Shown: positions 568 to 17,722 of the stretch, one piece after another
How positions within the stretch are numbered: the first letter of the stretch is position 1
Layout: each line of letters opens with the position of its first letter
Virus record (IMG/VR): IMGVR_UViG_3300034101_002224
Coordinates: 1-23,982 of that record
Strand: one strand, 5' to 3'
DNA length: 23,982 nucleotides
DNA from: a virus
The notes under the pieces: generated by a model
Seen by the model: only the letters and a program-made list of their open reading frames with translations
What the model was told of the DNA's origin: nothing
The model's database searches: none
Program-made: the position numbers and the translations under genes

Positions 568-1425
568 TTAGTTCAAATCAGCCCAGCTTGTGCCGTTGTA
601 GACCTTTAGCTTGTTGTCCACACTGTTGTAATACACGTCACCGGACTCGGCGCCTGCGGGGTTACTACTTAGTGGCATAAAGCGGACTTGACCCGCATGT
701 TTGAATGTCACCTTTACAGCGGAAGAGGTGTATGCGTCGTTGGTTGTCTCAATGGTCAAAGAGCCATCGCTAATGCCTCCGATCCTCCAAGTTTTTTGGT
801 TGCTGGACGCGTTGTTGTTATATAGTTGAAAGTAAGGATTCGCGCCCGCGGCATCGACCCTTGCTGTAATTCCGTCTTTAGCATTGAGAGTTGAGTTTGC
901 TAATGTAAGCGTCGTCCCAATACTCACATTCCCGCTGGCGTCGATGCGCATGCGTTCGGTGTTGTTCGTGCCAAACTGGAAGGCTCCGTTTTGCTGGTTA
1001 AGAATATATAGATTTGTTCCGTCTCCATAAATGTAGGCAGAGCGATACGATTCAACGGTGCCGGTTCGTCCGAGATTGACCAGAAAGTTTGCGGATGCGC
1101 TTGCGCCAACGCGAAAATCTCCAACGACATCCAGCCTGTAAACCGGCGACGTCCCAATCCCCACATTCCCGCTGGCGTCGATACGCATGCGTTCGGTGTT
1201 GTTTGTCCCGAACGACAGCGCAAAGTTGCCGGTGTTGGTGATCGAGCGGTTGGCGCCGCTGACGGTGATGTCTTGGGCGCCGAAGGCTGGCGCGACTTTG
1301 GTTCCGGCAATCGCCGCGGTGGCGCTGATGTCGGCATTGACAATCTCGCTGACGGTGCGCGCGTTGTTGAGCTTGGTCGGGGTGACAGTGTCGCCGGATG
1401 TGAATGTATATGCGTAGGTAGCCAT
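568..1425 (-). CDS. Tail fibre protein with repeated T-N-N-T-E-R motif
   Basis: The 285-residue product resembles phage tail fibre or receptor-binding proteins. The N-terminus (TFTSGDTVTPTKLNNARTVS) looks like a structural attachment segment. The sequence FGTNNTERMRIDASGNV occurs twice, followed by GIGT or SIGT; this motif is common in phage fibre proteins. The C-terminal segment GDVYYNSVDNKLKVYNGTSW is also typical of fibre ends. The middle is Ser/Thr/Asn/Gly-rich and free of long hydrophobic runs, as expected for a beta-structured trimeric fibre. The repeated motif is conserved at DNA level (near 930-975 and 1170-1215). The central DNA is more AT-rich than its neighbours, which suits a variable host-recognition domain. 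The function is inferred from family resemblance. Confidence 0.85.
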   Translation of the reverse strand: MATYAYTFTSGDTVTPTKLNNARTVSEIVNADISATAAIAGTKVAPAFGAQDITVSGANRSITNTGNFALSFGTNNTERMRIDASGNVGIGTSPVYRLDVVGDFRVGASASANFLVNLGRTGTVESYRSAYIYGDGTNLYILNQQNGAFQFGTNNTERMRIDASGNVSIGTTLTLANSTLNAKDGITARVDAAGANPYFQLYNNNASSNQKTWRIGGISDGSLTIETTNDAYTSSAVKVTFKHAGQVRFMPLSSNPAGAESGDVYYNSVDNKLKVYNGTSWADLN

Positions 1426-1430
1426 AGGAA

Positions 1431-1514
1431 TTATGCTGCTGATCTGGTTTGGCTTTGCTTCGCGGCAGCCTGTCTCGCTGCGCTCGGCTCGGTCGTTATT
1501 GTTTGGAAGTTCAT
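1431..1514 (-). CDS. Candidate small ORF, 27 aa, between two tail genes
   Basis: The 113-base gap between the large tail protein and the tail fibre holds this 27-codon ATG frame. It ends 5 bases before the fibre ATG and starts 24 bases after the preceding stop. The peptide begins MNFQTITTEPSAARQAAAKQ and is Ala/Gln-rich and basic. An A-rich stretch precedes the ATG but there is no clear Shine-Dalgarno. The tight fit to the fibre start favours a real coupled mini-gene. The short length makes chance equally possible. Nothing else is evident in the gap. Confidence 0.35.
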   Translation of the reverse strand: MNFQTITTEPSAARQAAAKQSQTRSAA

Positions 1515-1538
1515 TTCGTCTTTTAGTCTCTTGGTCTT

Positions 1539-3707
1539 TTAGGCCGCACTCCTTGTCTCAGTAGGCGGTAGAGATTTCGGCGATGCCTCAATGGATGCCG
1601 AGCGGATCTCCGGTCGGCCGTTGGATGTTCGATAAACTATTTCTGCCGAGTGCGCTTTGTAGCGGATCGGCGATTTCATGTTGTAGTCTTCGGGATTGTC
1701 GTTGGCCGAGTTGGTCAGCTCGCCGATTTCGCGCCCGCGAAGGGGTACAGGATCAGCGTCGTCAATGTCCGCCGAGAGGTCGGGATTGATCGTTCGGATC
1801 TTGGTTGTGACCGTTGAGTTGATCGGCAAGACCACATCGGCGATGGTGCGGAGGAACCGCTTTGAGTGCATGTCGCCGAAATCGTAGCGCCTTGTCTTGA
1901 TCCATCCGTTGACCGGGCTGGTGCCCGAGCTGCCAGCAGCGTTGTCGTCTTGGGCGCTGTCTTCTTGTTCCAGCAGGTAGAGGTTACCGGAGCGCGGGAC
2001 CGAGAAGACGCGGCGTTGGTTGTCGTAGGTTCCTACAAGGATCTGGTTGACCGAGGCGCTGCTGGGATAGGTGTCGCGGTATTCCCATGTGTCTGTCAGG
2101 GCGTTCCATGCGACGACGAGCTGGTTGCCATCGAGCGGGTCGGTGCTGGTGGGTAGCGCGATGAGGTATCTATTTGCATGCCAGATGCCGAAGGCGCTGC
2201 GTTCTACGCGGCTTTGCACCACTTGGCTAAAGAGGTCGGCGATAGGTTCGCTGAGAGGCTTGGTGTCGCCGCGAAGTTTCAAGTCAAGGCGGCTGTCGAG
2301 GCGGTAGATGCCAGCGTCACTGAGGAAGAAGACGAACGCACCGGCCGTAACAATCGTATTGCGGGCGCTGCATCCGATTTCGTTGGTCAAAAGCTCTAGC
2401 TTGCTTAATGGAAGGTCTATCTCAAAGTCTGAGCCATCGGATGACTGGAACTGATTCAGCGTGGCCAGCCATATAGACTTGCGACAAAACACTAGAGCAC
2501 TTCCCTCAATCCATGGGTGAATGGCAACGATACGGTCGTCGCCGCCAACTCCGGCGGTAAAGGCGTTCCATGCTGGGTCGTAAATATCTGCGTCTAAGAA
2601 GTCTGAGATGCCAACAGTGTATCTGTCCTTAATCAGCCAAAGGCGATTGTTGAAATATGTAGCCCATCCGACCGATGGCATGCGCGTATAGGTCACTCCT
2701 TCGGCGGGAACGCCTGCGGCGCCGCGGACAAAGTTGCCAGATCCGCCGTCCCAATAGATCGGCGGCTTTGTTCTCCGCACCTTGATTCCTGCGGCGGCGT
2801 GGGTCGCTGTGCCGCTTGGGACGGTGATGGTGAAAGAATCCGTGGCTACGCTCTGAATGTCGTATTCGTGGCCTGCATCAAAAGCCGGTGTGGTGCTGCC
2901 TTCGATGCGGACGCGGGCGCCAGCCGGATAGCCATGGGCCGTGACGTTGACTGTGGCCGTGGTCGAGCTGACCGTGATACCTGAAGCCGTTGTGAGCTTT
3001 TGCTCCCAGCCGCTGACGCTGCGGTCGGCTTCGCGGAGGATGTAGAGGCGGTCAAATGCCTGCACCACCGAGACAGTGTCTGTGCCTTCAATCTTTTCAG
3101 CGGGGCTTGTCGGGTAAGTCTTGACCACCGGAGATTGTCCCTGCCGGTAGAGCGTGGCGCTGTCGCTTCCGGCGAGCACGATGAATTCGTTGGCGTTGTC
3201 GTAGTTCTGCGAGGCGAAGACACCGGCCGCATAGAGTCCGCCTTCGTAGCTGTCGCGGACTTCGGGGCCGTTGTTGGCGATGATGGTGCCGGTGGCCGGT
3301 GTCGCGGGGCTTCCGCTGACGGTGTAGGTGAAAGTATTGGCGTCCGTAACGGTGACGATAAAGTCGCCGTTGTAGTCCGTCTGCACGGCGCCTCGGATGT
3401 TCACTTGGTCGCCGGTGGTGAATCCGTGGGCGGTCGCTGTGACGGTGGCCGTGGTCGAGCTGCGGGTGATTGAGGTGACGGTCTTGTCGGTGCCGAGGGT
3501 AAAGTCGAGAGTCAGCGGGGCGCCGGTCGTGCCGATGGTGTCGGTGAGGCGCTTGCTGCCCTTGCGGGTTTGCGCGACTCCGCGATCGAGGCGCATGTTC
3601 ACGCTGTCTTGCAGCATGCCTGCCGGTAGCGTGAGAGGGTTCAAGCGGCTGGCGAAGCCGATGAAGCCGTTGTCGCCGTCGCGTTGGACTGGACTTTCTA
3701 ATGCCAT
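1539..3707 (-). CDS. Large virion protein, candidate tail nozzle (T7 gp12-like role)
   Basis: This 722-residue product is the largest in the window. Its N-terminus (GFASRLNPLTLPAGMLQDSVN then an Arg/Lys-rich RKGSKR) resembles the start of tail tubular protein B-type nozzle proteins: a glycine-rich start, a 'VN' element and an R-x-G motif. Two copies of an Ig-like or cell-surface-type domain are inserted at about residues 77-140 and 243-310. They share S-S-T-T-A-T-V-x-x-T-A-H-G and end with F-T-x-T-V. The middle and C-terminal parts are rich in aromatic beta-strands compatible with a propeller. There are no membrane segments. The start overlaps the endolysin stop as TAATG. Assignment to the nozzle is inference from size, N-terminal pattern and context; a tail spike or other large structural protein is the alternative. 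Confidence 0.7.
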   Translation of the reverse strand: MALESPVQRDGDNGFIGFASRLNPLTLPAGMLQDSVNMRLDRGVAQTRKGSKRLTDTIGTTGAPLTLDFTLGTDKTVTSITRSSTTATVTATAHGFTTGDQVNIRGAVQTDYNGDFIVTVTDANTFTYTVSGSPATPATGTIIANNGPEVRDSYEGGLYAAGVFASQNYDNANEFIVLAGSDSATLYRQGQSPVVKTYPTSPAEKIEGTDTVSVVQAFDRLYILREADRSVSGWEQKLTTASGITVSSTTATVNVTAHGYPAGARVRIEGSTTPAFDAGHEYDIQSVATDSFTITVPSGTATHAAAGIKVRRTKPPIYWDGGSGNFVRGAAGVPAEGVTYTRMPSVGWATYFNNRLWLIKDRYTVGISDFLDADIYDPAWNAFTAGVGGDDRIVAIHPWIEGSALVFCRKSIWLATLNQFQSSDGSDFEIDLPLSKLELLTNEIGCSARNTIVTAGAFVFFLSDAGIYRLDSRLDLKLRGDTKPLSEPIADLFSQVVQSRVERSAFGIWHANRYLIALPTSTDPLDGNQLVVAWNALTDTWEYRDTYPSSASVNQILVGTYDNQRRVFSVPRSGNLYLLEQEDSAQDDNAAGSSGTSPVNGWIKTRRYDFGDMHSKRFLRTIADVVLPINSTVTTKIRTINPDLSADIDDADPVPLRGREIGELTNSANDNPEDYNMKSPIRYKAHSAEIVYRTSNGRPEIRSASIEASPKSLPPTETRSAA

Positions 3708-4291
3708 TAGTTGAGCGCGGCTTTGAGCCGTGACTTAAAGCGCGCTGCGTCGGCGGGGCTGATGTCGTTCTTGCGGTTTGGTGCGATCTGCTGGTGCGTG
3801 ACGATGCGGGACATCGGGATGTGCCACTTCTTCATTCGCGGGATGATGTATTGGATGGCGCTGTCCATCGCTGCTTCACCGAGCGGGTCTTCGTAGGTAT
3901 TGCCGTCCCATGCCACGCCGAGGGAATAGCTGTTGCAGTCCGGCACGCCTTGCCATGAGCTGATGCCTGCGTGCCAGCAACGCGCCGTATCGTCGGCGAG
4001 GACGGTGCGGTTGCCGTTGCGGGCGATGATGACGTGGTAGGACACTTTGCTCTCAGGGTTCATGCACCAGCTCACGGAGCCGTTGTAGCTACCGGATGTG
4101 TGATGCAAGACGATCATGGTCGGCGTGATGGGTCTGCCACTTTTGTTCGGGGTGTTGAGACGGCGCTCGTCGTAGGCTTTGCTCGCGGCGGGTGTGGAGA
4201 CGGTTGTGGATTCTAATGGCAAGCTCGGCGAGGCTGGCGCTGGGCCAGTCGCGGACTTTTTGCCAAACAGATTCTTGATCCACTTCCACAT
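3707..4291 (-). CDS. Endolysin: N-acetylmuramoyl-L-alanine amidase (Amidase_2/PGRP fold)
   Basis: The product (194 aa) cuts the amide bond between N-acetylmuramic acid and L-alanine of peptidoglycan at the end of infection. The catalytic domain spans about residues 55-190 and shows the family signatures: LHHT (H63/H64), SYHVIIARNG, CWHAG (H107), SLGVAWDG and IVTHQQIAPNRKNDISP (H166, D176). H63 or H64 with H166 and D176 are the likely zinc ligands. The first 40 residues are a basic amphipathic start (MWKWIKNLFGKK) followed by a Pro/Ser/Thr linker. This may bind membrane or wall but is not a clear signal peptide, so release through a holin is expected. It directly follows the small lipoprotein and holin-like genes and completes the lysis cassette. 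Confidence 0.93.
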   Translation of the reverse strand: MWKWIKNLFGKKSATGPAPASPSLPLESTTVSTPAASKAYDERRLNTPNKSGRPITPTMIVLHHTSGSYNGSVSWCMNPESKVSYHVIIARNGNRTVLADDTARCWHAGISSWQGVPDCNSYSLGVAWDGNTYEDPLGEAAMDSAIQYIIPRMKKWHIPMSRIVTHQQIAPNRKNDISPADAARFKSRLKAALN

Positions 4292-4293
4292 GG

Positions 4294-4446
4294 TTACTTC
4301 GCGTGACCTTTGGGCGGCGGGTTGACGGTGACGGTGGCCTGTTGCTTCAAGAAGTCATAGCCGACCGTGACGCAGCCAGCCGCAGCGACAGCCCAAGACG
4401 CGGCGAGGATCGCAACTGCAATGGCTTTTGTGACGCGGGCGGGCAT
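4294..4446 (-). CDS. Small lipoprotein, candidate Rz1-like outer spanin
   Basis: This is an ATG frame of 50 codons. It has a positively charged start (MPARVTK), a hydrophobic segment (AIAVAILAASWAVAAAGC) and a lipobox-like A-A-G-C with the acceptor cysteine at residue 25. The mature peptide is about 26 residues and ends in a proline-rich, basic tail (VNPPPKGHAK). This layout matches Rz1-type outer-membrane lipoproteins that help disrupt the outer membrane during lysis. It starts 4 bases after the holin-like gene and ends 2 bases before the endolysin. No typical Rz partner is visible, so it could act with a separate inner-membrane protein or alone. A general small lipoprotein is the alternative. 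The A at position -3 of the lipobox is weaker than L or V. Confidence 0.65.
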   Translation of the reverse strand: MPARVTKAIAVAILAASWAVAAAGCVTVGYDFLKQQATVTVNPPPKGHAK

Positions 4447-4450
4447 GGAG

Positions 4451-4624
4451 TCAGAGTCTCGCGTTGTTGTCTTTCGCCATCACCAAGCCCCAACCGGCGA
4501 GCAGGCTCGCGGCGATGAGGCCGAGGTCAGGGATTGTGCCGCTGGCCAGAAATTCGCGTCCGGCCGTGGACAAGCTGGCGATGATAGTGAGTGCTCCGAG
4601 CAGGTTCGTTTTCCAGTTTCTCAT
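4451..4624 (-). CDS. Holin-like small membrane protein, 57 aa
   Basis: An ATG frame of 57 codons begins 1 base after the stop of the previous membrane protein gene. The product starts MRNWKTNLLGALTIIASLST, then has a short polar stretch, then a second hydrophobic segment (LGLIAASLLAGWGLVMA), and ends KDNNARL. The 'W-K-T-x-x-x-G' start and the 'GWGLVMAKDNN' end recall a widespread phage family annotated as holin-like or membrane protein. Two membrane passes are likely. Its position just before the lipoprotein and amidase supports a role in letting the endolysin reach the wall. The holin function is inferred from topology and context. Confidence 0.7.
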   Translation of the reverse strand: MRNWKTNLLGALTIIASLSTAGREFLASGTIPDLGLIAASLLAGWGLVMAKDNNARL

Positions 4625-4625
4625 A

Positions 4626-4838
4626 TTATTTCAGTTCCTTCCGTTTCTTTTGAATGTCGTGCAGGACGCTCACAAGAGTCGCCAAGCCGACCAAAATACC
4701 GATGCAAAGACCTGCAACACGCAGGGTTGTTTCTAAATGGGGCAGCATAGAAAACACCGAGGAGCCGATAGACGTGGCCGTGCCGATGACGCCTTTTTCC
4801 GTCGTTGTGAAATGGTGATGGAAGTGCGTGATGCTCAT
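4626..4838 (-). CDS. Small membrane protein of the lysis region
   Basis: The preferred start is the ATG at 4838, which overlaps the upstream stop as ATGA, giving 70 aa. An ATG two codons earlier is possible. The N-terminus is His-rich (SITHFHHHF), residues 11-38 are Ser/Thr/Gly-rich and moderately hydrophobic, residues 40-60 form one clear membrane helix (RVAGLCIGILVGLATLVSVL), and the end is strongly basic (KKRKELK). One membrane pass with a charged cytoplasmic tail fits a holin, antiholin or an Rz-like anchor. It lies directly upstream of the holin-like gene. I cannot tell which of the two is the holin. Confidence 0.7.
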   Translation of the reverse strand: MSITHFHHHFTTTEKGVIGTATSIGSSVFSMLPHLETTLRVAGLCIGILVGLATLVSVLHDIQKKRKELK

Positions 4839-5110
4839 AGCCAAACCCTCCGTTGCTGCGTCGGAGTGACGCTGTAGTCTGCCGCCGGATCGGGCCGGTC
4901 GTCAGTCACGCGCAGGTTGAGGTGCCAGCCGTCGAGCGGCGTGCTGACCGGATTCTCAGGGTCGGTCATGTCGGTGTCCACCAGCACGCCTACCGGATCA
5001 AGGGCAAAGCCGGTGCCGCTGGTTTGCCATCCGGTCTCGGCATCGTAGTAATCGGCCAGCGCGGTTTGGGCCGTGGCCTCGTCGGGGAACTTATAAAGGT
5101 AGTCTTGCAT
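4835..5110 (-). CDS. Conserved phage hypothetical protein, 91 aa
   Basis: The product starts MQDYLYKFPDEATAQTALAD and contains ALDPVGVLVDTD, then LDGWHLNLRVTDDRPDP, then a short end with TPTQQRRVW. The order 'YLYKFPDE', 'DPxGVL', 'GWHxNLR' resembles a small protein seen near tail-fibre and lysis genes in many phages, for which I know no established function. It is acidic, lacks cysteines and membrane segments, and looks like a compact alpha/beta domain. It overlaps the next gene by ATGA. A role in fibre assembly or adsorption is a guess from position. Confidence 0.7.
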   Translation of the reverse strand: MQDYLYKFPDEATAQTALADYYDAETGWQTSGTGFALDPVGVLVDTDMTDPENPVSTPLDGWHLNLRVTDDRPDPAADYSVTPTQQRRVWL

Positions 5111-5121
5111 ATCAGGCGGTT

Positions 5122-5328
5122 TTAGGGCTTAATTGCGGCGTGGATAAATGTGCCCGTTGTTCCTGTGAAATTCCCTCCGGCGGCGTTGGCTGGCATGTGT
5201 GCTTCGACCCTTGCCATGAGCGCAACATCTGGGGCGGCGACACCTTTGAGACCCGCGCCTACCTGTGCGCCGAATGCGGCGAGCACTTGGCCAGCGTGAG
5301 CGGGATTGAGGATGAGGTTGGCGCTCAT
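5122..5328 (-). CDS. Small hypothetical protein, 68 aa
   Basis: The frame starts with ATG directly overlapping the stop of the lectin-like fibre gene (TAATG), and ends 11 bases before the next gene. The product is Ala/Gly-rich (LILNPAHAGQVLAAFGAQV, then NAAGGNFTGTTGTFIHAAIKP), with no cysteines and no clear membrane helix. I do not recognise a family. The Gly/Thr-rich end may be a beta-structured tip or linker. Position suggests a virion-associated or fibre-associated protein. Confidence 0.55.
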   Translation of the reverse strand: MSANLILNPAHAGQVLAAFGAQVGAGLKGVAAPDVALMARVEAHMPANAAGGNFTGTTGTFIHAAIKP

Positions 5329-6623
5329 TAGGTCGTGAGCTGTTGCAGCAGCGTGTTGCTCAAGCGGCGGGGCCAGTAGGCCACTTTGCGGATGTGGCCG
5401 TTGAGGGACCCCGAGCTTCCTGCGCGGCCACCGAGGCGCAGTCGATTTGCCGCTATTGGGTTGTGCGCGTTGGAATTGGTGGCCGAAACAAATGATCCAC
5501 CGTCGCTTCTACCCCCTACAAAAAACTCGCCAGACTTGATGCCAGCCACAAGTCGCGTGACTTGGCCCATTGTCAGTCCGCCGACAAACGCGTCTCTCGT
5601 TGTTTCTCCAGTGGCAGCGACGGCAAGGTATGCAATCGTATTAACAGAACTGGGATTAGTCGCTTGACTTAAATAAATTTCATTGCTCCCGCTGTTTGCG
5701 TCTGTAGCAAACGAGTATCCCTGAAAGGACGAAGTTGCAGAGGCATACCGCTGATGCTCCGCAAACAACGTCCCCTCCGCTTGATTATAAAACGAAGAGA
5801 TCGGCGTGACGACCGCACTGTCCGCGGCGCGTGTGGCGGCGGCGCTTGTCGTCGGGATGTAGCTGGTGGCGAAGGCGCCTTGCTCTAGCTGCGGGGCGGC
5901 TATGCGGAGGGTTAGGTCGATGGTGGCTCCGTTGGCAAATGTAAAACCCAACCCAAAGCGAACGCGCAGCGTTCCCGCATCAGCAAGTGTGCGCGTTCCA
6001 GAGTATCTTACCAAAGAGCTTGTTAGCGTGTGGTTTGTGTTGCCCGAAGTTAAGAGATTGCTTGAATTATCGTATTCAAGAAACGCAGCGCGGAATGTGT
6101 TGACGCCTACGCTTGATCCAGCGATGAGCGCCGCATAATAAGAGCCGGTCCATGTTTGGCTTGGAGCCGCTACAATATTGGTTGTTGTGTCAAAATATAC
6201 GGCCGCTGTCGTAGTGCTTGTTGTTCCAGAAAATTTAATGTCTACATAAGACAGTCCCGTCGAAGTCCCCGTTCCAACCACCTCGACAGCTAAAGTGCCC
6301 TGCACCGTTGCCCAATTCGTAGGCATCACCCCACCACTTCCAATCACCCCATTGGTCGAACCACCAGCCTGCGAGTTGCGGATGCTATTCGTCCGCGCCT
6401 CCTCGATGAGAAGCCCCAAGCTGCTGCCGCCGGAATGGTCGAAGCGGGGCGCATCGTTGGCGGCCGTTTGCAGCGTGCCGCTCGCGTCGAAGAAGGTGGC
6501 GTTGCTGGCTCTTGTGAAGGTGATCGCGGGGCCGACACCATGATCCAGCGTCTTCAAGCCCGCGAAGTCGCGGCTGAAGCTCGGCGCTGTCTGCAAAGCG
6601 CGTCTGGAAAATGGGAGCGGCAT
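5328..6623 (-). CDS. Tail fibre / adhesin with lectin-like (LamG/ConA-type) domains
   Basis: The 431-residue product contains a signature common in phage adhesins: TFTRASNATFFDASGTLQT, PRFDHSGG and GLLIEEARTN at about residues 35-80. A beta-rich domain follows (about 95-255), ending ASYIPT-like (AFATSYIPTTSAAATRAAD), which is typical of the same family. The C-terminal part (about 280-431) resembles a concanavalin-A/LamG-type sandwich: EGTLFAEH, RLVAGIKSGEFFVGG and a closing GHIRKVAYWPRRLSNTLLQQL. Such modules bind carbohydrates, so the protein probably recognises a surface polysaccharide or glycan. The middle DNA is distinctly more AT-rich than both ends of the gene, a sign of domain exchange. 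There is no visible enzymatic motif. Confidence 0.82.
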   Translation of the reverse strand: MPLPFSRRALQTAPSFSRDFAGLKTLDHGVGPAITFTRASNATFFDASGTLQTAANDAPRFDHSGGSSLGLLIEEARTNSIRNSQAGGSTNGVIGSGGVMPTNWATVQGTLAVEVVGTGTSTGLSYVDIKFSGTTSTTTAAVYFDTTTNIVAAPSQTWTGSYYAALIAGSSVGVNTFRAAFLEYDNSSNLLTSGNTNHTLTSSLVRYSGTRTLADAGTLRVRFGLGFTFANGATIDLTLRIAAPQLEQGAFATSYIPTTSAAATRAADSAVVTPISSFYNQAEGTLFAEHQRYASATSSFQGYSFATDANSGSNEIYLSQATNPSSVNTIAYLAVAATGETTRDAFVGGLTMGQVTRLVAGIKSGEFFVGGRSDGGSFVSATNSNAHNPIAANRLRLGGRAGSSGSLNGHIRKVAYWPRRLSNTLLQQLTT

Positions 6624-7118: not shown

Positions 7119-7736
7119 TTAGTATTGGTTGACGCGGGCGGTCCACATGGAGGGTTGCCCTTGCTGGAAATAATATTTGTCGCGCTGCGCGATTAGCTCG
7201 GACTCGGCCATCTGTTCCATGGCGAGTGCTTTTTCTGTCTGTCCGTCCTCTTGGAGCAGGTCAGAAGTCAGCATGAGCGCGACTGCTTTGGCTATGACGG
7301 CGGGCACTGTCGCGGTGAGGTTGCTTGCGCTGTATTCAGTCGGACGCACGCGGAAGTTGACCCAGACGCTAGTTGGCAGGTCGGTGTCTTCGGGGAAGCG
7401 AATGGCATCTCCGAGGAGCGTATAGCCAATGGCGCGGGGAGCGGCGTGGGTTGCAGGGTTGTCTCTTAGGACGCCAAAGACCTCGCCCATGGCGGTCTGG
7501 CCGCTTTGCTCGTAGTCGATGTAATAGCCGTTCGTAGCATCGCCCTGCACGGTGCGGCTTTCGACGCGCATGAGTTCTGGCCAATCGGCCCATTCCCAGC
7601 AGTCGGCGATGCGCTCGTTGGCGGCGGCGGTCATCATGGTTCTTGCGCCGGATGGGATGGCGTCGATGGTGCTGGCGTCGTTGCCGACGCGTTGCCATGC
7701 GCGGAGGAGGATAGACTGTAAAGTGACAGTCCTCAT
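7119..7736 (-). CDS. Putative head-tail connector / tail adaptor protein, 205 aa
   Basis: The product is largely helical. It starts MRTVTLQSILLRAWQRVGND, then ANERIADCWEWADWPELMRV, a beta-rich middle (YIDYEQSGQ to WVNFRVRPTEYSA), and a helical end with VIAKAVALMLTSDLLQEDGQ and LIAQRDKYYFQQGQPS. Helix, beta insert, helix with a final 'AESELIAQRDKYYF'-type segment is what tail tubular protein A/gp11-like adaptors of short-tailed phages show. These link the portal to the nozzle. Direct family membership is not certain. The start overlaps the upstream small gene as TAATG. Its placement between fibre genes rather than next to the portal is unusual but compatible. Confidence 0.6.
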   Translation of the reverse strand: MRTVTLQSILLRAWQRVGNDASTIDAIPSGARTMMTAAANERIADCWEWADWPELMRVESRTVQGDATNGYYIDYEQSGQTAMGEVFGVLRDNPATHAAPRAIGYTLLGDAIRFPEDTDLPTSVWVNFRVRPTEYSASNLTATVPAVIAKAVALMLTSDLLQEDGQTEKALAMEQMAESELIAQRDKYYFQQGQPSMWTARVNQY

Positions 7737-7897
7737 TATTCAGCAGCGGGTGCTTCCTCCGTGAGTTGCTTCTCGATGCTCGTAGCCAGCGGCAGGATCT
7801 GCGCGGCGGCGTTCAGCCCGCCGGTTTTGACGACGAGGTCTAGGCACTGCATGACCACTTTGGCCTCTGCTTCGGTAAGCGTGACGGTCTTATTCAT
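7736..7897 (-). CDS. Small hypothetical protein, 53 aa
   Basis: An ATG frame of 53 codons overlaps the end of the upstream gene by 8 bases (ATGAATAA) and the start of the connector gene as TAATG. This fills the space exactly. The product begins MNKTVTLTEAEAKVVMQCLD, followed by LVVKTGGLNAAAQILPLATS and an acidic end (KQLTEEAPAAE). Two amphipathic helices are likely. Small proteins of this pattern occur beside tail-fibre genes in other phages, without known function. Strong GC at third codon positions supports coding. Confidence 0.72.
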   Translation of the reverse strand: MNKTVTLTEAEAKVVMQCLDLVVKTGGLNAAAQILPLATSIEKQLTEEAPAAE

Positions 7898-8198
7898 TGG
7901 GCTGCTCCTGCTGGCTGGCCAAGTAGGCTTGGGTCGCGGGAATCGCGGCGAGGACGGCGGCGAATGCGGCGGCGAGTTCGGGAACGGCCTGCATGATTTC
8001 GGGCGTCAACGGCGCGGTAATCTTTTGGACGAGGCTTCCGTTGGCGAGTTCGCCGTCTGCGGTTGCGGGCAAAAGCTCCACGGTGATGCTGCCGCTGTCG
8101 ATGGTCGGCTGGATGGCGGACAACGTGTAAACGTGGAGCCTGTCATAGACCTTGGCGGCTACGGCGGGCGTTTCGATGGGATTAGGGTTGGTTAGCAT
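7890..8198 (-). CDS. Hypothetical protein, 102 aa
   Basis: The frame begins 4 bases after the stop of the long tail fibre gene. The product has a beta-rich first half (IETPAVAAKVYDRLHVYTLS, SGSITVELLPATADGEL) and a hydrophobic helical second half (EIMQAVPELAAAFAAVLAAI, then PATQAYLASQQEQPNE). The helical part is moderately hydrophobic but contains E and Q and is more likely amphipathic than membrane-spanning. I recognise no family. Its position directly after the fibre suggests a fibre-associated or chaperone-like role, which is only inferred. Confidence 0.65.
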   Translation of the reverse strand: MLTNPNPIETPAVAAKVYDRLHVYTLSAIQPTIDSGSITVELLPATADGELANGSLVQKITAPLTPEIMQAVPELAAAFAAVLAAIPATQAYLASQQEQPNE

Positions 8199-15445: not shown

Positions 15446-15730
15446 CTACTCCACGCGATGCGACTCCGCGCGGCGTGCTTCGAGCGCGTCCCACAGTTCC
15501 TGCAGCGCGCAGAGCTGACCGGCCGCGTGCGCGAGATATCCGCCCTCCTTCGAGGTTGCCATCGTGCTGCACAGCGTGACGGCGTCGGCGATGCGGTCCT
15601 GCAGCTCGGTCATCACGGCCAAGTAGGCATTGGGCGCCTGCTCGCGGCTGAAGGCGAGAGCGCCCTTTGGGTCGTAGTTGTCGGACACGGCATAGCGGTC
15701 CACCGGTATGGTTTTGGTTTTTGTGAACAT
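15446..15730 (-). CDS. Hypothetical protein, 94 aa
   Basis: The product starts MFTKTKTIPVDRYAVSDNYD, continues with GALAFSREQAPNAYLAVMTE and helical segments (LQDRIADAVTLCSTMATSKE, then LAHAAGQLCALQELWDALEA), and ends basic. It has two cysteines and no membrane segment. I recognise no family. The helical C-terminus could form a coiled coil. It starts 3 bases after the stop of a tiny basic ORF and is followed by the non-coding promoter stretch, so it may be the last gene of the terminase operon. Confidence 0.65.
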   Translation of the reverse strand: MFTKTKTIPVDRYAVSDNYDPKGALAFSREQAPNAYLAVMTELQDRIADAVTLCSTMATSKEGGYLAHAAGQLCALQELWDALEARRAESHRVE

Positions 15731-15733
15731 AAG

Positions 15734-15841
15734 CTATTGGCGGCGGTGGCGGGATTCGACACCCGCTCTTGTTACATATTCGTGTGTTATTTTGTAACGC
15801 TCCGCTGTCCGGCCGCGTGTCCTTCCACGCCGCACCGCCAT
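15734..15841 (-). CDS. Candidate small basic ORF, 35 aa
   Basis: This 35-codon ATG frame fills most of the gap between the zinc-ribbon gene and the 94-residue gene and ends 3 bases before the latter. The peptide is very basic (MAVRRGRTRGRTAERYKITH, with an end in SRHRRQ). The same DNA also shows a tRNA-like acceptor and T-arm. The frame could therefore be a by-product of that structure. No Shine-Dalgarno is obvious. Confidence 0.3.
   Translation of the reverse strand: MAVRRGRTRGRTAERYKITHEYVTRAGVESRHRRQ
15738..15839 (-). other. tRNA/tmRNA-like 3' end with matching acceptor strand
   Basis: On the minus strand the 3' end reads GCGGG, an 8-base loop TGTCGAAT, CCCGC, then CACCGCC, G and CCA. 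This is a T-arm contiguous with an acceptor strand, discriminator base and CCA. A GGCGGTG at the 5' end (15833-15839) pairs perfectly with CACCGCC, and a D-arm-like hairpin (GCGT/ACGC) follows it. The 48 bases between the D- and T-arms do not make a normal anticodon arm. The T-loop has one base too many. It may be a degenerate tRNA, a tmRNA-like end, or an attachment-site core copied from a host tRNA or ssrA gene. Confidence 0.3.
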
Positions 15842-15884: not shown

Positions 15885-16091
15885 TTATATCCAGAAGGGA
15901 TACATGACGTTGTTGGCGGCGATGACGTGCGGGCCGCACTCGCGGCAGATGGGGCCGAGTTGTTCGTCCACTCCGTGGATGTCCTCGATACGAAGTCGCT
16001 TGCTACACACGCCACAGCGCGGCGGCTCCTTGCTGCGTCCGCGCCATGGCCTCGCGCGCGGAGGCGGGGGAACTATGCCAGTGGGAGCCAT
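15885..16091 (-). CDS. Small zinc-ribbon protein, 68 aa
   Basis: The start overlaps the terminase stop (TAATG). The N-terminus is proline- and arginine-rich (VPPPPRARPWRGRSKEPP). Residues 26-52 hold CGVC and CREC, spaced C-X2-C-X19-C-X2-C, a typical zinc-ribbon or treble-clef layout, with a histidine at residue 55 close to the last cysteine. The rest ends in a hydrophobic tail (VMYPFWI). No catalytic histidine-asparagine pair of an HNH nuclease is visible. Coupling to the terminase suggests a DNA-packaging or regulatory accessory; HNH nucleases often sit beside terminases, but this one looks too short. Confidence 0.72.
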   Translation of the reverse strand: MAPTGIVPPPPRARPWRGRSKEPPRCGVCSKRLRIEDIHGVDEQLGPICRECGPHVIAANNVMYPFWI

Positions 16092-17722
16092 TAGTAGCTT
16101 CCTCCTCCGCGGGACATCAGCGTCTCGCCGTCCACGTTTCCTGCGCCGGAGAGCGCGATGAATTTCACGCAGTCAACCGGATCTTTCGTCGCGCCCTTCT
16201 TGCCGTCCGCTCCGGTATAGGTCGCCAGCGCATAAATCGTATTCTTGCACCGCTCCGAGATGTAGAGCTTCGGCTGGTTGAGCGCGCTGATCGGCTGCTC
16301 GTTGTTGTAGTGCAGCATCGAGTTGACCATGGCGACACCTTCGTCAATCGAGTCGGCCGGTGCGGCGAGGAAATCCACACCCAGCTCGCCCATCTCATCG
16401 ATCAGGGTCGTCGGCATCTCGCGCGCGAGCGTTGGCGCGTTGCCAAAGCGACTGTCCATGTATCTCTCGAAGATCTTCTCGCCGTTTTCGACGCGCTTAA
16501 TCTCCTCGACGTATCGCTCCAAGCCGAAGCCGAAATCGCTCTGCGCCGGTCCCGCTTTGCCGTCCATCTTCTTGCCGTCCGGCAGCGCCCACTCTCCGGC
16601 ATATCCGATAGATGGGATGTAGTCATCCATGCTTGGCCATTCGCGGTAAATTATGCAGCGACCGGCCGAGTCGTGAACGGACCAGAGCTGAAACCAGTTT
16701 CTGCCGCTGGCCGGATCGACCCAGTGATACCGCGTGCCCTCCGGCACGTCGCTGTGCCTGATGACGTGGACCTTTTCGTTGAATAGTGGGAAGCGGCCGG
16801 AGATTGCCTTGGTTGGCACGCCATAGGCGCGACATAAAATCTTCTCCTTGGTCTCGTTTTGAAGCTCCCTGCGCATGCGCGACCATCCGGCCCATGGATT
16901 GGCCTTGGTGTGGAAATACAAGATCGGCCGGTTGCGCGTAGACACCTGCAGGAGCGGCACCTTTTCGTAGCCGGTGACAAGTTTCTGGCCATTCTCTTCC
17001 TTGTGCAACGGCAGCAGCTCGGCGTCGGCCTCTTCGATGGTCTTGGCGCCGTTGAGGTACGATGCGACTGTCGGGCTGTAGCCTTGAACCGGCGTAAACG
17101 TCACGGCGAGCTTGCCATTGCGGTCCAACAGACGGAATCGCAACGTCTCAATGAGCGAAAGACCGACTAATTCGTCGCAGTAGGCCATATCCAGCTCCGC
17201 ACCTTCTATGACACTCAAATCTTGCGCGTAATTTTTAAAAATACAGACTGACGCGTTTGGAGCGACGAACTTGGCCTCTGAGAAGCCATTTTTAATAGTG
17301 AAACTTATTGAAGTGACGGAACTCTTCCGCGCCGTCCGCCATTCCGGCGGCATAAATTTCCACAAACGCGGCTGCTGCGACTCGATGCTGGTCGCGGAGG
17401 TCTCGGCGAAGCACCAGACGACGGCTCCGGCCTTGTTATACATCGTTTTGATGATCTCCTTCGCGGCCCATTCCGTTTTTCCGCTGCGGTTTCCGCCAAG
17501 GACAAGCAGCTCTCTATGTTTTTCGAGGAGTTCGCTGGCCCTTTTCCATACCGGAGGCTCGTAGCCGTAGCGGAATGGGTCGGCCTTCTCGCGGGCGATC
17601 AATTCCTCGCGGGTTTTTAAGTATGTCCAGCCGTCCTCTGGTCCGAGTTTGCTCAGAAGATCGGTGTCGATCTTCATAATCGGATGCTCAGACGGCTGAA
17701 ACCGTTGTTTCTGTTCGTTCAT
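16091..17722 (-). CDS. terL: Terminase large subunit
   Basis: This ATP-driven motor cuts concatemeric phage DNA and pumps it into the prohead through the portal. The ATPase half has Walker A GGNRSGKT (residues 76-83), the adenine-side segment AVVWCFAETSA (100-110), Walker B LDMAYCDE (177-184) and a coupling motif VTFTPVQGY (207-215). The nuclease half starts near RYHWVDPASG and has later acidic residues in YMDSRFGNAP and DEMGELGVDF, compatible with an RNase H-like fold. The length, 543 aa, is normal for the family. The start overlaps the upstream stop as ATGA. No small terminase subunit is recognisable nearby; it may be one of the unknown small genes or be absent. Confidence 0.93.
   Translation of the reverse strand: MNEQKQRFQPSEHPIMKIDTDLLSKLGPEDGWTYLKTREELIAREKADPFRYGYEPPVWKRASELLEKHRELLVLGGNRSGKTEWAAKEIIKTMYNKAGAVVWCFAETSATSIESQQPRLWKFMPPEWRTARKSSVTSISFTIKNGFSEAKFVAPNASVCIFKNYAQDLSVIEGAELDMAYCDELVGLSLIETLRFRLLDRNGKLAVTFTPVQGYSPTVASYLNGAKTIEEADAELLPLHKEENGQKLVTGYEKVPLLQVSTRNRPILYFHTKANPWAGWSRMRRELQNETKEKILCRAYGVPTKAISGRFPLFNEKVHVIRHSDVPEGTRYHWVDPASGRNWFQLWSVHDSAGRCIIYREWPSMDDYIPSIGYAGEWALPDGKKMDGKAGPAQSDFGFGLERYVEEIKRVENGEKIFERYMDSRFGNAPTLAREMPTTLIDEMGELGVDFLAAPADSIDEGVAMVNSMLHYNNEQPISALNQPKLYISERCKNTIYALATYTGADGKKGATKDPVDCVKFIALSGAGNVDGETLMSRGGGSY

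Follow-up and report, generated by a model that had tools for sequence, protein, structure and literature searches.

A candidate family of phage tRNA-mimic RNAs that carry a hypervariable insert

Known cases of tRNA mimicry include tmRNA, Y RNAs and the 3' ends of plant viruses. The system nearest in concept to the phage element described here is YrlA RNA (Rfam RF02553), which occurs in bacteria, is reported from some phages and, like the element, is a noncoding tRNA mimic that combines D- and T-like arms with a second domain. In fetched YrlA loci, however, the RNA is circularly permuted, with the T-arm first, then a capped acceptor hairpin and then the D-arm. It also has a canonical UUCGA T-loop and a UAGCUCA-type D-arm, whereas the phage element is unpermuted and has the T-loops UAUCAAGC or AGUAGCGC. 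The tmRNA (ssrA) shares a tRNA-like acceptor and T-arm, and a long domain takes the place of its anticodon arm. The phage element differs from tmRNA in its paired D-like arm, its phage-specific insert, the lack of a common tag frame and, usually, the lack of an encoded CCA. Phage tRNAs resemble the element in their same-strand position in arrays, short spacers, 7-bp acceptor stem, 2-nt linker and 5-bp T-stem, but the element has no anticodon arm, has a 5-bp D-stem without A14 and A21, mostly has an 8-nt T-loop and encodes CCA in about 5% of cases. GOLLD, which is located near tRNA genes, and ROOL are likewise noncoding structured RNAs of phages and prophages, but are very large and ornate, and the element is unmatched in Rfam. 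No RNA of this plan, tRNA-like, present over many unrelated tailed phages and with a hypervariable insert, is contained in Rfam 15 or was found in the literature searched, in which subscription journals were thinly covered. The yjdF riboswitch is reported to have an aptamer that takes a tRNA-like shape (PMC9142559). It is a regulatory mRNA leader; the element, in contrast, is intergenic, often lies among tRNA genes, has no fixed downstream gene and has no Rfam match.

The element was found in a viral record of 23,982 bases, the whole of which is called the window here. It lies on the minus strand, which is that of the phage genes, in the gap between a 68-amino-acid gene behind the large terminase gene (16091 to 17722, minus strand; Pfam Terminase_6N, PHROG terminase large subunit) and the next downstream gene, which encodes 94 amino acids (15446 to 15730, minus strand) and is kept in relatives with or without the element. 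A GP88-family gene (Pfam PF17338; 17719 to 18369) is directly ahead of the large terminase.

The whole element comprises 98 nucleotides (15742 to 15839, minus strand), from the 5' strand to the 3' strand of an acceptor-like stem. The 5' strand, GGCGGTG (15833 to 15839), forms seven of seven pairs with CACCGCC (15742 to 15748) and covaries with it in the family. It is followed by a family-conserved linker, CG (15831 to 15832), in the place of tRNA nucleotides 8 and 9, and by a near-invariant D-like arm, GCGTG-GAAGGA-CACGC (15815 to 15830), in which a stem of 5 bp with compensatory changes encloses a loop of the form GA-N-GGA. A 48-nt insert (15767 to 15814), hypervariable in the family, stands where a tRNA has its anticodon and variable arms. 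The T-like arm, GCGGG-TGTCGAAT-CCCGC (15749 to 15766), directly adjoins the 3' strand of the acceptor-like stem and is preceded by a conserved A at 15767. All of these features are on the minus strand, and every part that the original prediction named between 15738 and 15839 was recovered there, including the 8-base T-loop (arm at 15766 to 15749). The CCA that had been taken as part of a tRNA-like end fared differently: the GCCA behind the stem (15738 to 15741, minus strand) is coincidental or local, and NCCA is found at this place in 7 of 133 members of the family.

Established RNA models do not account for this region. ARAGORN called neither a tRNA nor a tmRNA in the window, and no Rfam 15 family matched the window at gathering score, an outcome that the original prediction had listed among those that would count against it. 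A search of the element region up to E = 10 returned only the unrelated bxd_5. In 12 loci that bear members of the family, searched with E up to 1, only abiF, tRNA, a tRNA-Sec-like stretch and mir-8286 were matched, all of them away from the elements. The 35-codon open reading frame in which the structure had seemed to be buried is spurious: relatives carry stops and frameshifts, so that conservation of this frame, once proposed as a point against the RNA, turned out to count against the frame instead. The 48 bases between the arms indeed lack a normal anticodon arm, but they are not a failed one. They are a variable insert with two hairpins, CCG-GACAG-CGG (15802 to 15812, minus strand) and GTTACA-16 nt-TGTAAC (15771 to 15798, minus strand), both of which undergo compensatory changes. 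Within the sub-family of the window, all 26 pairs hold in every one of 16 members; the first hairpin changes to CCA-GACAG-TGG, and the second changes from GTTACA/TGTAAC to GTCACA/TGTGAC (T-A to C-G) or to GACACA/TGTGTC (T-A to A-T).

The family was first reached when the D-like arm was used as the sole search pattern, which led to many unrelated viral contigs. In these contigs, the 7 nucleotides before the D-like arm have their complement directly behind a T-like hairpin. The resulting plan is a 7-bp acceptor-like stem (P1), a CG linker, a D-like arm, a variable insert, a T-like arm and the returning acceptor strand. P1 can have nearly any sequence apart from an invariant G7-C pair. The D-like arm has the consensus GCGTG-GA(n)GGA-CACGC, with compensated variants GCGCT/AGCGC, GCGTT/AACGC and ACCGC/GCGGT, and the T-like arm is GCCGG-TATCAAGC-CCGGC or a variant of it. 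The linker is CG in 85 of 93 elements of one loop type (type I) and 66 of 73 of the other (type II), the 3' end of the insert is A in 128 of 133 members, and total length is about 85 to 260 nt. Thus, on comparison of sequences, the tRNA-like frame is unpermuted, with a 7-bp acceptor stem, a 2-nt linker, a D-like arm and a T-like arm adjoining the acceptor strand. A strict search over all loci yielded at least 141 candidates, at least 133 of them with the family T-loop; a later count gave at least 144 elements, and more than 200 distinct copies in phages and prophages are found when type II elements are included.

A covariance model, R1, was built from 50 members. It scores the window element at 74.2 bits (E = 5e-12), a value to be read with the window sequence in the training set. 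Outside the training set, R1 matches phages over its full length in L505 (9e-11), L508 (4e-9), L506 and L507 (both 2e-8), L510 (1e-7), L509 (2e-5), L532 (2.5e-5) and L530 (8e-5). The named phages matched are Caulobacter phage DMCA, Komagataeibacter phages phiKX1 and phiKX2, Pseudanabaena phage Pan3, Ochrobactrum phage POI1126, Alcaligenes phage QDWS595, Synechococcus phage Ssp-JY40 and Pseudomonas phage Persinger. A pairing scan detected complete type II elements in Pseudomonas phages PotUPM1 and Orimi01 and in Ssp-JY40, where the element is directly behind the large terminase, an arrangement similar to that in the window. In DMCA, the element lies near 25554 to 25686 of PQ480021.1. None of these named phages has an annotated RNA at the element. 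Phages that can be cultured at present thus carry it, so that its expression, processing and loss of function are directly testable, and R1 can serve to annotate it elsewhere among phage genomes. In Orimi01 (L533), an annotated hypothetical coding sequence at 2994 to 3467 starts inside the element and is probably spurious or mis-started.

Complete elements are found in contigs of many Pseudomonadota and also of Acidobacteriota, Desulfobacterota and Verrucomicrobiota. Among 297 Pseudomonadota genomes drawn at random, one carries the element under strict filters, besides the two seed genomes, and this rarity implies an accessory, phage-borne element instead of a housekeeping RNA. The conserved blocks had no match in E. 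coli genomes. When the large terminase was used as a query for relatives with and without the element, 41 IMG/VR loci encoding the same terminase were obtained; alignment places the element behind the terminase in L004, L008, L009, L015, L021, L023, L029, L035 and L043 and indicates its absence from many relatives. Genes near the elements include those for terminases, helicases, methyltransferases and recombination proteins. Clustering of neighbor genes gave no protein family consistently next to the element, so no partner protein is indicated.

Covariation supplies the main evidence for structure. The first test used an alignment of 50 diverse members, all selected because their P1 pairs perfectly. 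Paired cells make up 99.8% of it, both sides vary in 14 of 17 pairs, and the covariation score reaches 0.562; shuffles score 0.121 and slid controls no more than 0.087. The test was repeated with elements anchored on the D- and T-arms only. Acceptor pairs 1 to 7 were then 92 to 96% Watson-Crick, pair 8 was 69% and pairs 9 to 16 were 33 to 49%; because pairing drops after pair 7, the stem has 7 bp, as in tRNA, and is extended in a minority of members. Among acceptor pairs 1 to 7, there are 28 G-U and 8 A-C combinations, and this excess of G-U suggests that the minus strand acts as RNA. Folding by itself is uninformative about strand, because both the minus strand (single-stranded fold, z = -2.55) and the plus strand fold better than shuffled sequence. 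The minus strand is favored over the plus strand by the G-U bias and by agreement in strand with tRNA genes. These observations reject the proposal of a degenerate phage tRNA, because the structure covaries and is strongly selected in hundreds of phages, and they bear out the proposal of a tRNA-mimic RNA, which can now be demonstrated by comparison.

The two loops also change in step. In type I elements, the T-loop UAUCAAGC is paired with D-loops of the form GA-N1-3-GGA (80 of 93), and in type II elements the T-loop AGUAGCGC is paired with D-loops ending in GC(n)RGA, typically GAAAGCAGA (62 of 73). No crossed combination between the types was seen, and rows classed as "other" are largely the same hairpins in another frame. 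Seven-nucleotide T-loops (UGCAAGU) accompany longer D-loops, a coupling that is weaker evidence because it occurs mostly inside the sub-family of the window. Such joint change would be expected if the loops touch to form a tRNA-like elbow. Because the conserved tRNA residues U8, A14 and A21 are not retained, the details of the elbow would not be those of tRNA.

Sequence comparison thus establishes the existence, strand and architecture of an RNA family. That this is a real tRNA-like RNA family is almost certain, and the window element is probably a gene for a small structured noncoding RNA of this widespread and apparently undescribed family of phage tRNA mimics. As for expression, maturation, partner and function, we infer the following scheme. 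The RNA would be transcribed together with neighboring phage genes or tRNA arrays and would be excised by RNase P and RNase Z, the enzymes of tRNA maturation. A conserved host factor that recognizes the elbow of tRNA might be the docking site of the constant frame, which might also protect the RNA. The insert might be the phage-specific working part, by analogy to tmRNA and YrlA, in which a constant tRNA-like part is joined to a second domain. The proposal that the element works as a two-module RNA of this kind, with a constant frame and a phage-specific insert, is a tentative one.

Some elements are located within phage tRNA arrays. Nineteen of 115 non-redundant elements are within 600 nt of a tRNA predicted by ARAGORN; one of these is a self-overlap, which leaves 18 (about 16%), compared with 5.2% expected if positions within those loci were drawn at random. 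Every one of the 18 has the same orientation as the tRNAs, often with 8-nt spacers. One locus (L309), for example, has the order tRNA-Leu, element, 8 nt, tRNA-Lys, 15 nt, second element, 15 nt, tRNA-Arg, and POI1126 (L509, 3751 to 4227) has tRNA-Met, element and tRNA-Gln, with both tRNAs unannotated in the record. The short spacing would imply excision by tRNA-processing enzymes. The majority of elements lie away from tRNA genes, and no type II element was in a tRNA array among 30 loci checked. In QDWS595 (L510), roughly 12 ARAGORN predictions of tRNA or tmRNA-like type fall at 645 to 5401, one of them a doubtful tmRNA, and the feature table lists no tRNA genes.

Phage tRNA arrays and tRNA-cutting defenses are an active field of study, and the element would be a non-tRNA RNA that sits in some of these arrays. 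Perhaps it serves as a tRNA decoy, in which an elbow mimic titrates a host defense that cuts or sequesters tRNA and the insert provides bulk or sets specificity. Same-strand position in the arrays is consistent with this role, as is the known ability of phage tRNA loci to counter tRNA-cutting defenses, and an RNA without an anticodon arm would be immune to anticodon nucleases. One study reports cleavage of the variable loop of tRNA-Tyr by Septu and the amplification of anti-defense loci by a phage homing endonuclease (PMC13096335). However, a pure decoy needs no distinct insert of 33 to 208 nt in almost every phage, and the type II elements checked are outside the arrays. We therefore regard the decoy role as possible but rather unlikely.

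The element moves between phages. Similarity between the DNA of the window and that of L135, L080 or L137 is confined to the element, so the window contains an exact unit that is also present in otherwise dissimilar phages. In L008, L029 and L121, where the element is behind the terminase, and in L059, 99 of 99 nucleotides are identical between dissimilar flanks, and the identical stretch stops at the acceptor stem. An identical copy in unrelated flanks implies movement as a unit. Judged from these alignments, the unit spreads between phages and its ends are those of the acceptor stem.

Exact movement bounded by 7-nt repeats, together with the proximity of some copies to integrase or transposase genes, could instead reflect an element that functions as DNA, such as an attP site or a MITE-like or hairpin element bounded by terminal inverted repeats, which a transposase or integrase would move and whose likeness to tRNA would be incidental. 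This is quite improbable. Across families, the terminal repeats show almost unconstrained covariation and are not conserved as transposase sites would be; on one strand, G-U is accepted more readily than A-C; the D- and T-loops change together; and the strand agrees with that of tRNA arrays in every case noted above. For the window in particular, the suggestion of an attP core is unsupported, because the 5' and 3' arms covary and the element occupies varied intergenic sites, and no integrase was seen among the ten window proteins searched.

The preferred reading, a tRNA-mimic RNA, also has to be distinguished from an unusual functional tRNA, or a tRNA with an unrecognized intron, that is charged and decodes. 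The 7-bp acceptor, the adjoining T-arm, the 2-nt linker and the position in tRNA arrays could be accommodated by such a tRNA. However, an anticodon arm (5 bp with a 7-nt loop) after the D-arm is absent from the window element and from members with short inserts, the shortest of which are 33 nt, and no splice-like core is common to the inserts. CCA is encoded in 7 of 133 elements and in 33 of 48 tRNAs in 13 array loci. T-loops are mostly of 8 nt, and the window element has neither an ARAGORN nor an Rfam tRNA call. A decoding tRNA is thus very improbable. The term tmRNA-like, also part of the original prediction, holds as an analogy, in that a tRNA-like part accompanies an inserted domain; the acceptor sequence and loops differ, and tmRNA and other Rfam families were rejected because they gave no match.

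Reported Y RNAs of mycobacteriophages (PMC12282133), and the common organization of a tRNA-like module plus a second domain, raise the possibility of a YrlA-type Y RNA that binds the Rsr/Ro60 protein. The opposite order of the arms and the canonical loops of YrlA argue against it, as does the lack of cross-matches: R1 matches none of the YrlA loci, and RF02553 matches neither the window nor, at E up to 1, any of the 12 loci with family members. Identity with YrlA was rejected on these grounds, which leaves this explanation only a slight chance. Rsr/Ro60 is absent from the most frequent neighbor families of the element, and bacterial hosts may supply it. Chance resemblance in the GC-rich DNA of the window, in which 7-nt complementary pairs are common, has next to no probability and is refuted by shuffle controls, because the strict detector has one match in the window and none in 200 dinucleotide shuffles, and 50 of 116 T-arm loci contain a full element and none do after shuffling.

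The inserts, of 33 to 208 nt, are diverse, with 133 inserts forming 112 clusters. Their folding is only slightly above shuffled stability (mean z = -0.54), and no closing stem or fold common to inserts was found. Antisense matches of an insert to its own locus do not exceed chance, and a role as antisense guide to that locus was rejected for lack of a signal. Related inserts keep their hairpins, and L147 and L348 have near-identical inserts under different P1 stems. Three otherwise different elements (L236, L240 and L310) have the insert motif GCAATCCTAGGT in common, which suggests that inserts form sub-families, each with conserved parts of its own. It is conceivable, if somewhat speculative, that the elements constitute a mobile and modular class of phage RNA, in which a tRNA-elbow frame gives entry to a host tRNA-handling machine and phages exchange and diversify effector inserts.

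Several individual loci have further features. The long inserts of L102 and L533 look related by eye and belong to different phage loci, one of them from a Pseudomonas syringae phage. The insert of the Pan3 element (L508) includes a tRNA-like sequence at 4060 to 4125 that passes the Rfam tRNA threshold with 34.9 bits, a tRNA within a tRNA mimic. The 4.3-kb locus L106 contains, besides its tRNA-like element, an abiF RNA (Rfam, 46.6 bits) at 2631 to 2668. A Bordetella trematum genome carries a tandem pair at G008:C32:6361-6664, in L518, and a third element on another contig; locus L237 also lies in G008. In L054, two elements are arranged back to back, at 7647 to 7755 (minus strand) and 7826 to 7959 (plus strand). 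They have different inserts and the same acceptor stem, GCTGGAG/CTCCAGC, and one element is of each loop type.
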